A DNA stretch of 64,000 nucleotides. Origin: Leptotrichia sp. oral taxon 847. Its GTDB lineage: Bacteria > Fusobacteriota > Fusobacteriia > Fusobacteriales > Leptotrichiaceae. Every line of letters starts with the position of its first letter. The first letter of the stretch is position 1. The DNA is taken from NCBI RefSeq assembly GCF_001553645.1, contig NZ_CP014231.1:1922001-1986000 (forward strand), read 5' to 3'. The translations under genes and the position numbers were made by a program. The notes beneath the pieces were generated by a model that was given only the letters and a program-made list of their open reading frames with translations, did no database searches and had not been told where the DNA came from. Shown piece by piece: positions 2,458 through 19,717 of the stretch.

Positions 2458-4125
<1,668 letters not shown>

Positions 4126-4191
4126 TAATTTAGGTATTTTCTAAAATAAAAATATTTTAGAAACAATAAAATAAATAAATGTAAATTAAAG

Positions 4192-4227
4192 AGAGGTAGC
4201 GGTTAAACTACCTCTTTTCTTTTTTTT
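4192..4227 (+). terminator. groESL terminator
   Basis: Perfect stem AGAGGTAG (4192-4199) / CTACCTCT (4208-4215) with an 8-nt loop and a T-rich tract to 4227. The tract abuts the stop codon of the convergent mvaS-mvaA gene, so the hairpin separates two converging transcripts. Confidence 0.85.
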
Positions 4228-6679
4228 ATTTTATTTCTTTCAAAATTTTCTTCACATTTTCTAAGTTAATACTTTTCCCGCTTTCCAAGAGCCTTTCCAC
4301 AGCAATATCAATTTCCTTTCCTTTTGCACCAGCAAATAATGCCAACGAACGAGCCTGCAACTTCATATGTCCGTGCTGTATTCCAGTTGTAACAAGTGCT
4401 TTTATTGCGGCAAAATTCTGAGCGAGTCCTACTGATGTAATAATGCTTGCCAGAGTTCTTGCGTCAGGATTTCCTAAAATATTAAATGCAGCTTTTACGC
4501 TTGGATTTAGCCCTATTGAGCCGCCTACACTTGCGATTGGCATTGGAAGGGTAAGTTCGCCTTTTAATTTATTTGCGTTTTCATCAAAAGTCCAAGTTGT
4601 AAGCCCTTCGTATTTTCCATTTTTCACAGCAAAGGCATTTCCGCCAGCTTCGATTGCGCGCCAGTCGTTTCCGGTAGCGATTACCACAGCGTCAATTCCG
4701 TTAAAAATTCCTTTATTATGAGTTGTGGCACGGTAAATGTCAAGTTTTGCAAATTTGCTTGCAAGTTCAATTTTTTTGGCAGTTTCAATAGATGTTTCCA
4801 TTGAGCTGCTAAGAAGTTTTACATTTACTTCACATTCGGCTTTTACTAGAGATTCGGTTGCATAATTTGATAAAATTGCCATTAGGCTTTTTCCGTTTGT
4901 AATATTTTCAAGCGGTATTTTTATGGCTTCAAGCATTGTATTCAAAATATTTGCACCCATAGCCTCCTTCACATCGGCAATCAGATAAACAATCAAAAAT
5001 TCATCAATATTTTTTACTTCAATATTAATTGCACCGCCGCCACGTGCCACAATCGAAGGATGAGCATCATTTGCAATTCTTAGAATCTCATTTTTGTTTT
5101 CTAAAATCATCGAAGTCGCATTATCAAAGTCCAAAATATCATACAATGCAACTTGTCCAATCATTTTCCTGTCTAAAATCTTTGTTGTAAAACCGCTAGA
5201 TTTTCCAATAATTTTAGCTGCATAGCTGCACCCTGCCACAACAGATGGCTCTTCGGTAACCATTGGCACAGCATAATCCTTTCCGTCAATAACAAAGTTT
5301 GAAGCAATGTTAAATGGCAAAGCAAAGGTTCCAATCCCGTTTTCAGCCATCTGATTTGCAGTTTCCAGTGGCAAGTTCTCATTTTTTTTCAGAATTTTTT
5401 CAAATTCATCAGTTAAAAAGCCATTATCTTTTAACATTTGGATTCTTTCAAGCCGATTCTTTTTTTGAAATCCGAGCCAGTTTTTTTTCTTTTTATTCAT
5501 TTTGACAACCTCTTTTTTATAAATTCTTTTATGATTTTCAATTTTTTCCAAATAAAAAAGACTGTTATCTTGCGGGAAATTAACACTATTTCCATCTTCA
5601 TCAAGTTTTATCTGCTCAAAAAATATTTTTTCGTATTCGGCGGTGCTAAGTCTTTTTCTTTTGTCGAAGTCCTTAATTCTATCGTTTCTCAACTGATTTT
5701 TAAATCCATCGACAAGCGTAATACTAAAAATTTCACAAACCGCACCACTTCCATAACTGTACATTCCAATCACATCGTTAGATTTTAAATTTTGGCAATT
5801 TTCCAGTAATGAAAGTAAGCTTAAATAGAGAGAACCTGTGTAAATATTTCCAATTCGTTTGCCGTAAATTATTGAAGAATAAAAATTGTCCAAAAGTGAT
5901 GTCTTCCGTTCTTTTGTCAAATTTTCAGTTTCGGAAAAAAGTGAATTTAAACCTTTCAGTCCAAGTTTTGGGAAAGGCAAATGGAAACAAAAGGCGCTAA
6001 AATCAAGTAAATTTTTATTATAACGTTTTTGATATTCGCAAAAAGTCGTAGTAAGGCAGTCCAAGTACTGTTTTGAAGAAAAATGTCCATCTACAAATGG
6101 GAAATTGGAATAATTTGGACGCCAAAAATCCATTATATCCCTTGTCTGACAGACACTGTCATCATTTAAAATTGCAATTTTGGGGTCTTTTTTAATAAGC
6201 ATGGCCATACTTCCTGCACCTTGAGTGGATTCTCCAGCGGTACCAATACCGTATTTAGCAATGTCAGAAGCTATGACCAGAACTTTTGATTCTGGATTTT
6301 GTAAAATGTGATTTTTTGCAAAATTTAGTGCAGCAGTTGCACTGTAACAAGCTTCCTTTATTTCAATACATTTTGCAAAAGGCTGAATTTCAAGTAAATG
6401 ATGAATAAAGACTCCAGCGGATTTGCTCTGATCAATTCCCGATTCTGTTCCAACTATTATTAAATCAATCTCTTTTTTATCTTTTTCATTTAAAATTTTT
6501 TCTGCTGCACTAGCTCCCAATGTTACAATATCTTGAGTAATTGGAGCAACACACATTTCACTTTGCAGCAGTCCCTTTGTAAACTTATTTTCATTTTGTT
6601 CCCTAGATAACGCTAAGTCTCTAATATCCAAAAAGAAATCAGGCATTGCAAATCCAATTTTATCTATTCCGATTTTCAT
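4226..6679 (-). CDS. Fused HMG-CoA synthase / HMG-CoA reductase
   Basis: One 817-aa ORF carries two successive mevalonate-pathway enzymes. Residues 1-393 are a complete MvaS-type HMG-CoA synthase with catalytic Glu79, Cys111 (EACYSAT) and His233. Residues 394-817 are a complete class II HMG-CoA reductase: EEPSVVAG (Glu476), HNKGI (Lys656), TGND (Asp672) and the GHM histidine (His771). Each half has the length of a free enzyme, and the linker is nothing more than KKEVVK. The product would condense acetyl-CoA with acetoacetyl-CoA and reduce HMG-CoA to mevalonate. No other mevalonate gene is in the window. The start ATG at 6679 has AAAGGGTG upstream. An internal RBS and Met394 could also yield free reductase. 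The fused-ORF call is firm; whether the cell makes one or two proteins is inference. Confidence 0.93.
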   Translation of the reverse strand: MKIGIDKIGFAMPDFFLDIRDLALSREQNENKFTKGLLQSEMCVAPITQDIVTLGASAAEKILNEKDKKEIDLIIVGTESGIDQSKSAGVFIHHLLEIQPFAKCIEIKEACYSATAALNFAKNHILQNPESKVLVIASDIAKYGIGTAGESTQGAGSMAMLIKKDPKIAILNDDSVCQTRDIMDFWRPNYSNFPFVDGHFSSKQYLDCLTTTFCEYQKRYNKNLLDFSAFCFHLPFPKLGLKGLNSLFSETENLTKERKTSLLDNFYSSIIYGKRIGNIYTGSLYLSLLSLLENCQNLKSNDVIGMYSYGSGAVCEIFSITLVDGFKNQLRNDRIKDFDKRKRLSTAEYEKIFFEQIKLDEDGNSVNFPQDNSLFYLEKIENHKRIYKKEVVKMNKKKKNWLGFQKKNRLERIQMLKDNGFLTDEFEKILKKNENLPLETANQMAENGIGTFALPFNIASNFVIDGKDYAVPMVTEEPSVVAGCSYAAKIIGKSSGFTTKILDRKMIGQVALYDILDFDNATSMILENKNEILRIANDAHPSIVARGGGAINIEVKNIDEFLIVYLIADVKEAMGANILNTMLEAIKIPLENITNGKSLMAILSNYATESLVKAECEVNVKLLSSSMETSIETAKKIELASKFAKLDIYRATTHNKGIFNGIDAVVIATGNDWRAIEAGGNAFAVKNGKYEGLTTWTFDENANKLKGELTLPMPIASVGGSIGLNPSVKAAFNILGNPDARTLASIITSVGLAQNFAAIKALVTTGIQHGHMKLQARSLALFAGAKGKEIDIAVERLLESGKSINLENVKKILKEIK
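5498..5513 (-). promoter_or_regulatory. Internal ribosome-binding site and start codon at the reductase boundary
   Basis: On the minus strand AGAGG (5513-5509) lies 8 nt before ATG (5500-5498), Met394 of the fused ORF. Starting here gives a 424-aa protein, the normal size of class II HMG-CoA reductase. This looks like the retained start signal of a once separate mvaA. Confidence 0.55.
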
Positions 6680-6941
6680 ATGAAATTCACCCTTTCGTTG
6701 TATTATTTATACTTTAAATTTTAAGTTTTTTTAAAATGTATTTTATAAGCATTTATTATATTTTACTACAAAAAAAATGAAATATCAAATATATTCTTAG
6801 ACAAGATAGAACATTTGCAAGAAAAAAACTTTAAAGTCTGAATAAATGATTTTTAAAGAGTTTGAAATAATAAAAAAAAATTTTTTTATAAAAAGTTAAT
6901 TTATTTATTTTATTCGATAAATAAAGAGTTTTATAGAAAAT

Positions 6942-7281: not shown

Positions 7282-8643
7282 GGGTGTGTAAAAATTTTTG
7301 TGTAAACCTCTAGATAATATATGGTAAAATAACTGTATAATATTTGGAGGTTTTTGTTATGACTAAAAAGAAAATTGACAACGAAATTTTTAAAACACTG
7401 ATTGAGGATTACAATATTAAAGATACTAATGATATTAAGGATATGCTTAAGGATTTGCTTTCGGGTACTATCCAAACCATGCTTGAAGCTGAAATTGAGC
7501 ATGAACTGGGGTATGCTAAACATTCTATGAAAGATAAGACTACTTCTAATGCTAGAAATGGACATTCCAAGAAAACTGTTAGAAGTGAGTATGGCAATCT
7601 TGATTTAGATATTCCTAGAGATAGAAATGCTGAGTTTGAGCCTCAAATCATCCCTAAATATCAAAGAGAAATTACTGGCATTGAAGGACAGATTCTTTCT
7701 CTTTATGCTAAAGGAATGAGCAATAGAGATATCGAGGACCATCTCAATAATCTTTATGGAATTGATGTTTCGCCATCTATGATCAGTAAAATTACAGATA
7801 AAATTATACCTGAAATTAGGGAATGGCAGTCTAGACAGCTTGAGGATGTATACCCAATAGTTTTTATGGATGCTATCCATTACAGCGTAAGAAAAGATGG
7901 AGTTGTTGTTAAAAAGGCGGTATATTTAGCTATAGGAATAGATAAGGAAGGGCGAAAGGAGGTCTTAGGATTTTGGATAGGAGAAAATGAATCAAGCAAG
8001 TACTGGCTAAATGTTTTAAATGAATTAAAAAACAGAGGAGTTCAGGATATACTAATTATGTCTGTTGATAATTTAAAAGGGTTCAGCGAAGCAATATCTT
8101 CGGTGTTCCCTAAGACAGAAATTCAAAAATGTGTGGTTCATCAAATTAGAAACAGCATAAGATACATATCTTACAAAGATGTAAGGGAATTTACATCAGA
8201 CTTAAAAGAAATGTACAATGCACCAACACTGGAACAGGCAGAGTTTAAACTGGATGAACTAGAAGAAAAATGGGGTAAAAAGTATATGGCAGTAATTAAT
8301 TCCTGGAGAAGTAACTGGAATGAGTTGACAACATACTTTAAATATGATACAAAGATAAGAAAGCTGATATATACGACAAACCCGATAGAAAGCTTAAACA
8401 GACAATTAAGAAAGTATACGAAGACAAAATCACTTTATCCGACAGATGAAGCATTGATGAAGTCAGTATATTTAAGTTTAAAGGAAGCAACAAGGAAATG
8501 GACTGGAAGAATACCGGGCTGGGGAGAAATATATTCTCAGTTAAGTATTTATTTTGAAGGAAGGATTTAAAAACAGGATGATAAAAATACCATCCTGTAC
8601 CATATATTATATTTTGAGTTTACACAAAATTCTGGACACTCTC
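7282..8643 (+). mobile_element. IS256-family insertion sequence, copy 1 (1362 bp)
   Basis: Complete element. The left end begins GGGTGTGTAAAAATTTTTGT; the right end, read inward, begins GAGAGTGTCCAGAATTTTGT; both continue into GTAAAC. It is flanked by 8-bp direct repeats AAAAATTT (7274-7281 and 8644-8651). An internal promoter (TATAAT at 7336-7341) serves the transposase. A hairpin ACAGGATG / CATCCTGT (8573-8598) follows the stop. Apparently identical to copy 2 at 32442. Confidence 0.92.
7359..8570 (+). CDS. IS256-family (Mutator-type) DDE transposase
   Basis: This 403-aa transposase catalyses copy-and-paste movement of the IS. DDE context: FMDAIHYSVR (first Asp), MSVDNLKGF (second Asp), the CVVHQIRNS motif and NPIESLNRQLRK (Glu). 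ATG 7359 is preferred because GGAGG ends 8 nt upstream; the in-frame TTG at 7344 lies upstream of and overlaps that site. The gene is intact and the protein is identical to that of copy 2. Confidence 0.95.
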   Translation: MTKKKIDNEIFKTLIEDYNIKDTNDIKDMLKDLLSGTIQTMLEAEIEHELGYAKHSMKDKTTSNARNGHSKKTVRSEYGNLDLDIPRDRNAEFEPQIIPKYQREITGIEGQILSLYAKGMSNRDIEDHLNNLYGIDVSPSMISKITDKIIPEIREWQSRQLEDVYPIVFMDAIHYSVRKDGVVVKKAVYLAIGIDKEGRKEVLGFWIGENESSKYWLNVLNELKNRGVQDILIMSVDNLKGFSEAISSVFPKTEIQKCVVHQIRNSIRYISYKDVREFTSDLKEMYNAPTLEQAEFKLDELEEKWGKKYMAVINSWRSNWNELTTYFKYDTKIRKLIYTTNPIESLNRQLRKYTKTKSLYPTDEALMKSVYLSLKEATRKWTGRIPGWGEIYSQLSIYFEGRI

Positions 8644-12281: not shown

Positions 12282-13103
12282 ATGAAAAATACAAAAGAAT
12301 CAAATGAAACGACACAAAGAGCAGAATTACATCATAAAATCTGGGCAATTGCAGATAATGTGCGTGGAGCAGTGGATGGTTGGGATTTTAAACAGTATAT
12401 TTTGGGAATATTATTTTATAGATTTATTTCGGAAAATATGACAGAATTTTTCAATAAAGCAGAACATGAAGCTGGAGATTTGGAGTTTAATTATGCGGAT
12501 ATTTCTGATGAAGAAGCCAAAGAAGATTTTAGAGCTGGTACTGTGGAAGATAAAGGATTTTTTATTTTACCAAGTCAACTTTTTGAAAATGTAGTAAAAA
12601 CAGCGAGAAATAATGAAAATTTAAATACTGATTTGGCTAATATTTTTAAATCCATTGAGGCAAGTGCTATTGGTTTTGAATCGGAAAATGATATTAAAGG
12701 ATTATTTGAAGATGTTGATACTACCAGTAACCGTCTAGGTGGAACGGTAGCAGAAAAGAATATAAGATTAGCAGATATTTTAATAGGAATTTCTGAAATT
12801 AATTTTGGGAGTTTTCAGCATAATGATATAGATGCTTTTGGAGATGCGTATGAATATCTGATTTCAAATTATGCCAGCAATGCTGGTAAATCAGGAGGAG
12901 AATTTTTTACACCGCAAACAGTTTCTAAACTTCTGGCAAGACTTGTAATGGAAGGAAAAGAAAATATCAATAAAGTATACGATCCGACATGTGGGTCTCG
13001 TGTCATAATAATGACAGAGGCAAATAGTTCAGTAAAATCAAAGGTTTTGAAGCTTCTACCAAAGTTAAAAACTGAAGAAACTGATAGTTTATGTGTTGCT
13101 TAG
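12282..13103 (+). pseudogene. hsdM: Type I restriction-modification methyltransferase HsdM, truncated at the SAM motif
   Basis: Residues 1-239 are an ordinary HsdM: the HsdM_N helical domain ([20 protein letters not shown]), the linker, then [18 protein letters not shown] and VYDPTCGS. Homology stops inside motif I (normally DPTCGSGSLL). The last 34 residues, starting [11 protein letters not shown], are foreign. The catalytic NPPF/NPPY motif and C-terminal half are missing, so methylation by this protein is not expected. AAGGAG precedes ATG 12282. The rest of hsdM is not found downstream, so it was replaced rather than interrupted by the conjugative-element fragment. Confidence 0.85.
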
Positions 13104-16690: not shown

Positions 16691-19600
16691 ATGTCAGAAA
16701 AAAGTGCAGTTTATGAAACATCAACTATTGCTGAAATGACAAATGGGATTATTTTAGCTAATTATGAAAAAATATTGCAGGTGCAGGAAGCTTACCAGAG
16801 CGAAGCAGAATTAGAAGAAAGCATGATAAAAAATCTTGTATTACAGGGTTATGAGAAGTTTAATGGAAAAACATCAGATAATTTGTATAAAAATTTAAAA
16901 ATACAGATTGAAAAGCTGAATAAGGTAACTTTTACAGATGAAGAATGGAAACGTTTTTTAGTTGAATTTCTTGATTCACCAAATGACGGTATGATAGAAA
17001 AAACTAGAAAAATTCAGAAAAATCATATTTATGATTTTATATTTGATGACGGACATCTGAAAAATATAAAAATTATTGATAAAAAAAATATTCATAACAA
17101 CTTCTTGCAGGTAACGAATCAGATTAGGCAGGAAGGCACTCATAATAACCGTTATGATGTAACTATACTGGTTAATGGACTGCCGCTTGTTCATATAGAA
17201 TTGAAAAAACGTGGTGTAAATCTTCATGAGGCATTTAACCAGATTCATAGATATAGCAAGGAAAGCTTCAATGCTGAAAATTCGCTTTATAAATATGTAC
17301 AGATATTTGTAATTTCAAATGGGACTTATACACGTTATTTTGCAAATACTACGGCACAGAATAAAAATCATTATGAATTTACATGTGAGTGGGCAGATGC
17401 GAAAAATAAAGTTATTAGAGATCTTAAAGATTTTACAGCAACATTTTTTGAAAAACGTACAATGCTTGAAGTGCTGACAAAATATTGTGTTTTTGACTCA
17501 AATAATACACTCCTTATAATGAGACCTTATCAGATTGCGGCAACAGAACGTATTTTGTGGAAAATAGAATCTAGTTTTCAAAGTAGAAAAGCAGGAAAAA
17601 TTGAAGCAGGAGGATTTATCTGGCATACAACAGGTTCAGGTAAGACTTTGACTTCCTTTAAGACTGCAAAACTTGCTACAGAGCTTGATTATATAGACAA
17701 AGTGTTTTTTGTAGTTGACAGAAAAGATTTGGATTATCAGACAATGAAGGAATATCAGAAATTTCAGCCTGATAGTGTAAATGGAAGCAAGGATACAAAG
17801 GAACTTAAACGAAGTATAGAAAAACAGGACAATAAAATAGTTGTTACAACTATTCAGAAATTGAATGAATTTGTTAAGAAAAATTCAAATCACGAAATTT
17901 ATGATAAACATTGTGTAATAATATATGATGAGTGTCATCGTTCACAGTTTGGAGATGCACAGAAGAATATCAGAAAATCTTTTAAACATTACTATCAATT
18001 TGGATTTACAGGAACTCCTATTTTTCCTGAAAATGCTCTTGGTGTTGAAACAACAGCAGGAATTTTTGGAGCACAACTTCATAGTTATGTTATAACGGAT
18101 GCCATTCGTGATAAAAAAGTTTTAAAATTTAAAGTGGATTATAATGATATTAGGGCAAAATTTAAAGCGGCTGAAACAGAAACAGATGATAAAAAGCTTA
18201 AAGAACTTGAAAAAAGAATGTTGTTACATCCTGAGAGAATTTCTAAAATAGTAGAATATATTTTAAAAGTATATAATACAAAAACTCATAGAAATGAATA
18301 CTATAATATAAAACAGAAACGGCTAAACGGGTTTAATGCTATGTTTGCTGTTCAAAGTGTAGAAGCGGCAAAACTTTATTATGAAGAATTTTAAAAACAG
18401 CAAGAAAATTTGTCTGAAGAAAAAAGACTGAAAGTAGCAACAATTTATAGTTTTGCTGCGAATGAAGAGCGAAATGCGATAGGAGATATTCCTGATGAAA
18501 ATTTTGAGCCAAGTGCAATGGAATCGACAGCGAAAGAATTTTTGGATAAAGTGATATCTGATTACAACGATTATTTTAAAACAAATTTTTCAACAAATGG
18601 AAACGAATTTCAGAATTATTATAAAGATTTGTCTAAAAAGGTTAAGGATAAAAAAATTGATATTTTAATTGTTGTGGGAATGTTTTTGACAGGATTTGAT
18701 GCACCAACATTAAATACTTTGTTTGTTGACAAAAATTTGAGATACCATGGATTAATTCAAGCATTTTCAAGAACAAACCGTATTTTGAATAAAGTTAAAA
18801 CTTTTGGAAATATTGTATGTTTTAGAGATTTGGAAAAGGCTACAAAAAATGCTATTAAAACTTTTGGAGATGAAAATAGTGTAAATGTAATTCTTGAAAA
18901 AAGTTATAACGACTATATGAATGGATTTAAAGATGAGGAAACAGGGAAATCAGTAAAAGGATATATAGATTTGTGTAATGAAATAGTTAAAAAATTTCCA
19001 AAGCCTGTTGAAATTGAAAAAAATCAAGATAAAAAGGAATTTGCAGAATTATTTGGAGAATTGCTTAAAACAGAAAATATACTTAAGAATTTCGATGAAT
19101 TTGAAAATTTTGAGAAAATTATATCTGATAGACAAATGCAGGATATGAAGAGTGTTTATGTGGATATTTGTGAAGAAATAAGAAATGTTGGAAAAAATGA
19201 TCAAAATAATAGTGATGAACAAGGAATTGATTTTTCTGATATTGAATTTCAAATTGATTTGCTTAAAACAGATGAAATTAATTTAGATTATATTTTAGAG
19301 TTAATTTTAGAAAAGACAAAAGAACATGATGATATTGAAACATTAAAATCTGAAATAAGAAGAGTTATACGTACAAGTTTAGGAACTAGAGCGAAAGAAA
19401 ATTTAGTTATAAATTTTATTAACAAAACAGATTTAAAAAAATTGAAAAATAATGGAGAAATTCTTGACACTTTTTATAAATATGCAAAAAAAGAAAAGAA
19501 GGAAAAAATTGATGAATTAGTTAAAGATGAGAATTTAAAGGAAGATTCTAGAAGATTTATTGAAAAATCTATAAATAAAGGTTTTGTTGACTATGCTGGC

Positions 19601-19717
19601 TCTGAATTAGATAGTATTCTTCCGCCAACTTCACGAAGAAAAGGGGCAAGAGAGGTTAAAAAACAATCTGTATTGGAGAAAATACGGAAAATGGTAGAAA
19701 TTTTTATAGGGATTTAA
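16691..19717 (+). pseudogene. hsdR: Type I restriction endonuclease subunit HsdR, in-frame stop
   Basis: HsdR is the ATP-driven translocase and nuclease of type I systems. The N-terminal nuclease region ([20 protein letters not shown]), Walker A ([11 protein letters not shown]) and DEAD-like motif ([10 protein letters not shown]) are clear. A TAA at 18392-18394 (YYEEF-stop-KQQENL) interrupts the frame, and the same frame continues to 19717 with the second helicase lobe (GMFLTGFDAPTLNTLFVDK, HGLIQAFSRTNRI). A point mutation of a sense codon explains it. The 567-aa product would keep the nuclease and Walker A but lose half the motor. Confidence 0.85.

Follow-up and report, generated by a model that had tools for sequence, protein, structure and literature searches.

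A probable recent in-frame fusion of the HMG-CoA synthase and HMG-CoA reductase genes in Leptotrichia sp. F0260

The fused frame and its surroundings

Within the 64,000-nucleotide stretch of Leptotrichia sp. F0260 DNA analyzed here (the window), a minus-strand open reading frame (ORF) running from 6679 to 4226 comprises 817 codons with zero internal stops and joins mvaS and mvaA in a single frame (Table 1). This agrees with the original prediction of one uninterrupted ORF, as well as with its claim that both enzymes are complete. The model TIGR01835 (HMG-CoA-S_prok) matches over its full length at residues 3-387, with 492 bits against a cut-off of 360, and TIGR00532 (HMG_CoA_R_NAD) does so at residues 383-775, with 322 bits against a cut-off of 260; the Pfam domains are consistent with this assignment of the two halves. 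The best solved relatives, the HMG-CoA synthase structure 3leh and the HMG-CoA reductase structure 3qae, align end to end with residues 1-389 and 397-816, respectively, and residues 399-817 make up a complete class II HMG-CoA reductase. Chance could not account for a single frame that encodes both enzyme domains at full length.

The catalytic residues fit this picture. In the synthase half, E79, C111, and H233 are all at the expected positions, and the reductase half carries the motifs EEPS, HNKG, GNDW, and GHMK, which supply E476/E477, K656, D672, and H771. Cys111, His233, Lys656, Asp672, and His771 had been named correctly beforehand, but the glutamate placed at 476 is one of an EE pair, either member of which (476 or 477) may be the catalytic residue. 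From sequence, then, the N-terminal half is a bacterial HMG-CoA synthase (MvaS) and the C-terminal half a class II HMG-CoA reductase (MvaA), each with the corresponding predicted activity.

Table 1. Features of the fused gene and its flanks, in window coordinates
Feature	Position	Strand	Remarks
Promoter-like site TTGATA-17-TAAAAT upstream of mvaS	6760..6788	minus	Consensus match only
Probable mvaS ribosome-binding site (GAAAGGGTG)	6688..6696	minus	Sequence inspection
Fused mvaS-mvaA ORF	4226..6679	minus	Stop included; ATG start, TAA stop, 817 aa
HMG-CoA synthase (MvaS) part	5513..6679	minus	aa 1-389; clade-A type
A6 run	5513..5518	minus	7 A at the same place in G009
Shine-Dalgarno GAGGT	5508..5512	minus	7 nt ahead of ATG 5500-5498 (M394); retained from the unfused arrangement
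Linker EVVKMNKKK	5486..5512	minus	aa 390-398; contains the old reductase start
HMG-CoA reductase (MvaA, class II) frame from its own old ATG	4226..5500	minus	424 aa
Terminator-like hairpin after the fused gene	4192..4215	minus	Common to convergent groEL

Upstream of the fused gene, and divergent from it, lies a Mutator-family transposase gene (window 7344-8570). Farther along the window, a type I restriction system (12282-13103 and 16691-19717) appears decayed: its HsdM-like ORF is short, and its HsdR-like ORF is split by an in-frame TAA at a position that is open in the Leptotrichia genomes G006 and G009.

Occurrence in relatives and known systems

Both mvaS and mvaA are carried by all 13 Leptotrichia genomes, and only in F0260 do they share a frame. 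In 10 of the 13, the two are separated by a gene for a 196-aa hexapeptide O-acetyltransferase (Hexapep/Mac), while in G009 and G012 they are adjacent. In G005, G006, and G011, what looked like one long open frame (1065-1089 aa) proved to consist of three genes, with the acetyltransferase in the middle.

The fused two-domain order did not recur more widely in the phylum, a comparison to which the original prediction had pointed. A search of 98 Fusobacteriota genomes gave matches in 35, and an uninterrupted synthase-reductase was seen in none of the 97 genomes other than F0260. Nor did we find a fusion among 377 Lactobacillales genomes with matches, where all full-length one-frame matches are interrupted by one or more stops; three candidates picked out there by open-frame length (G245, G370, and G393) turned out to be separate genes or to have a broken reductase. 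Junction scans of viral contigs gave no match. None of 78 further loci from Streptococcus, Gemella, and Leptotrichiaceae is fused. These groups have the same enzymes in the same order, and many pairs lie end to end or share a few bases, but unlike in F0260 they always form two frames with a stop between them. The one-frame architecture is thus not conserved, as it would be in an established synthase-reductase fusion family.

In the open-access part of the literature, no report of a synthase-reductase fusion was found, in line with the original remark that no characterized one is known. The archaeal thiolase/HMG-CoA synthase complex (6esq) also links neighboring upper mevalonate steps, and the synthase half of the F0260 fusion shows a match to its chain I. 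We take this complex to be non-covalent and to combine the synthase with thiolase and no reductase, unlike the F0260 protein. The known fusion in the pathway is, as had been pointed out, MvaE of Enterococcus, an acetoacetyl-CoA thiolase-HMG-CoA reductase that is present in several enterococci and has been characterized. As in F0260, MvaE carries its class II reductase on the C-terminal side of a second enzyme from this pathway (PMC10070635). The partner differs, however, being a thiolase in MvaE and a synthase in F0260, where the fused ORF has no MvaE-type N-terminal thiolase domain and its N-terminal half is HMG-CoA synthase instead.

The junction and the origin of the two halves

The nearest unfused arrangement is that of G009, which at the junction differs from the window by one A, with seven in the run as against six (junction sequences: window, TATAAAAAAGAGGTTGTCAAAATG; G009, TATAAAAAAAGAGGTTATTAAAATGG). 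In G009, where the junction reads CGA ATT TAT AAA AAA AGA GGT TAT TAA A|ATG G, mvaS ends in RIYKKRGY, the mvaA start comes one base past the mvaS stop, and the mvaA ribosome-binding site AGAGG is embedded in mvaS. The window codons read AGA ATT TAT AAA AAA GAG GTT GTC AAA ATG AAT. Adding a seventh A to the window would yield two genes, mvaS then ending in RIYKKRGCQNE* at a TAA that overlaps the mvaA start. The TAA that terminates mvaS in G009 reads CAA in the window, as would be expected because that frame is out of use after a fusion. Across Leptotrichia, the mvaS tails following RIYKK vary in length and sequence, and indels are therefore tolerated there.

The two halves differ in their affinities. 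Over the 400 kb compared, the median protein identity of F0260 is 94.6% to G006 and 93.0% to G009, as against 76% to L. buccalis (G001). The mvaS gene and the linker as far as the ATG of mvaA are of this background (G006/G009) type, mvaS being about 88% identical in DNA to G006/G009 and about 74% identical to the rest of Leptotrichia. From ~5480 to ~4170 (about 4150-5500), the DNA is mostly 92-99% G008-like and about 70% identical to G006/G009; likewise, the reductase, of clade-B type from about 5480 on, shares 96-97% protein identity with G008, G001, and G010 and about 72% with G006/G009. Beyond mvaA, in groEL, the sequence is back to the background type. Consistent with this mosaic, homologous recombination probably brought in mvaA from a distant Leptotrichia clade, with one of its breakpoints where the two genes meet. 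Because the missing A is situated in background-type sequence, at least some 20 nt upstream of that breakpoint, the import and the frame change look like separate events. Another short G008-like tract is seen in groEL at about 3600-3800.

The reductase start of the unfused arrangement survives within the fused ORF. M394 is preceded by a 5-base Shine-Dalgarno (SD) match, and in 400 kb of F0260 sequence, equal or longer matches occur at 61% of gene starts compared to 3.7% of internal ATGs. RNA structure at the junction near M394 is no stronger than in shuffled sequence (z, -0.66). Since SD and ATG are intact, a free 424-aa reductase is probably still produced alongside the fused chain, which makes it doubtful that the 817-aa protein is the sole product, as the original prediction had it.

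Readings of the junction and pathway context

We favor a genuine fusion, in frame and very recent, of two operon neighbors that has kept the old mvaA start and tethers the two halves, and we give this reading roughly two chances in three, a weight that, like the one we leave to an artefact, reflects judgement rather than a computed probability. Ancestrally, mvaS and mvaA would have abutted as in G009, and the 3' end of mvaS would have contained the mvaA ribosome-binding site. When an A7 run in the unconstrained mvaS tail then lost one A, the mvaS frame would have been joined to that of mvaA, such that ribosomes entering at the mvaS start would continue through mvaA and yield an 817-aa synthase-linker-reductase chain, while the untouched mvaA ribosome-binding site and ATG would still give some free 424-aa reductase. 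Each half would act as an ordinary enzyme, the two being connected by a flexible tether about nine residues long. The reductase half itself was probably swapped in by recombination from another Leptotrichia clade. Judged from the comparisons above, the fusion is most likely young, near-neutral, and limited to the strain, and not an established two-in-one enzyme. We are more tentative about a stronger version, which we consider somewhat unlikely, in which the natural fusion is produced as a single active chain next to free reductase translated from the internal start, the ratio between tethered and free enzyme thus being set by one gene.

The most serious competitor is an assembly artefact, in which the true run would have seven As and the strain two overlapping genes, mvaS ending in RIYKKRGCQNE* and mvaA starting at M394. 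The fusion is read from one assembly and turns on one homopolymer base. Residues 385-394, where the original prediction had located the frameshift that would undo the fusion, fall on the six-A run, which has one extra A in G009, and a homopolymer error is therefore a live alternative. In favor of such an error are the one-base difference from G009 exactly at the junction, the intact mvaA start signals, and the two genes seen in all other genomes compared. There is also a likely precedent, in that a single A lacking from an A run divides mvaS of G008 (L052) into ORFs of 246 and 143 aa; we read this break as probably a sequencing error, and such errors therefore do seem to occur in mvaS in public data. 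For this reason we leave the artefact a real but clearly minor share of the weight. What speaks for a genuine fusion is, first, the quality of the assembly at large: frameshift counting over 400 kb of the F0260 genome gave 1-2 candidate single-base indels against about 193 orthologous ORFs, with none in L. buccalis and more in G006 than in F0260, and the assembly therefore appears fairly clean. Moreover, no second F0260-specific fusion stood out in the 400 kb compared with G006, G009, and L. buccalis. The loss of the stop codon at the G009 position fits a real fusion as well, and the variation of the mvaS tails shows that change at this place is natural.

Conceivably, the junction could be switchable, with A6/A7 slippage yielding both fused and separate products, perhaps also in G009-like relatives. 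A homopolymer does sit right at the frame junction, in frame in F0260 and one base out in G009, but runs of 6-7 As are short for strong transcriptional slippage, and the arrangement is absent from other species; we regard this as very improbable.

AlphaFold models both domains confidently (mean pLDDT, 88), with a pTM of 0.53, a disordered linker (residues 391-398, pLDDT of <50), and a relative domain placement that carries no confidence. The model thus depicts two normal, independent enzymes on a flexible tether, and channelling, although possible in principle, finds no support here. Direct transfer of HMG-CoA from synthase to reductase in a selected bifunctional enzyme, as originally suggested, would suit two consecutive pathway steps in one chain and has a precedent in the enterococcal fusion, but we consider it the least probable reading of all, given a fusion in one strain only, a short, low-complexity, and disordered linker between domains without a confident arrangement, and a junction that bears no sign of adaptation except for the loss of the stop.

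If real and expressed, the gene would represent consecutive upper mevalonate enzymes joined by a single-base loss and caught early, with the old start signal retained. Such a fusion would offer a clean system for asking if simple tethering alters flux, and mevalonate engineering would gain a ready-made part, whereas a sequencing error would illustrate how easily homopolymers give rise to false "novel fusions."

The fused gene is the single copy of both enzymes in the F0260 genome (GCA_001553645.1). Dxr, a marker of the MEP route, had no match in this genome (the control was positive in 10 of 14 genomes), and mvaK1 (mevalonate kinase) and mvaD (diphosphomevalonate decarboxylase) are present; F0260 therefore probably needs both fused activities. 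Thiolase_C had zero matches in all 13 Leptotrichia genomes (G000-G012), and the Thiolase_N matches in F0260 are weak ones only, to FabH/FabF-type frames. MvaS nevertheless requires acetoacetyl-CoA. In other Leptotrichiaceae genera (L244 and L245), a thiolase lies directly upstream of mvaS, as part of a full operon, thiolase-mvaS-mvaA-mvaK1-mvaD-mvaK2-fni, next to groEL (L244, 563-9384; L245, 5157-13866). In Leptotrichia, mvaS-mvaA is likewise found beside groEL, but mvaK1 and mvaD are located elsewhere.
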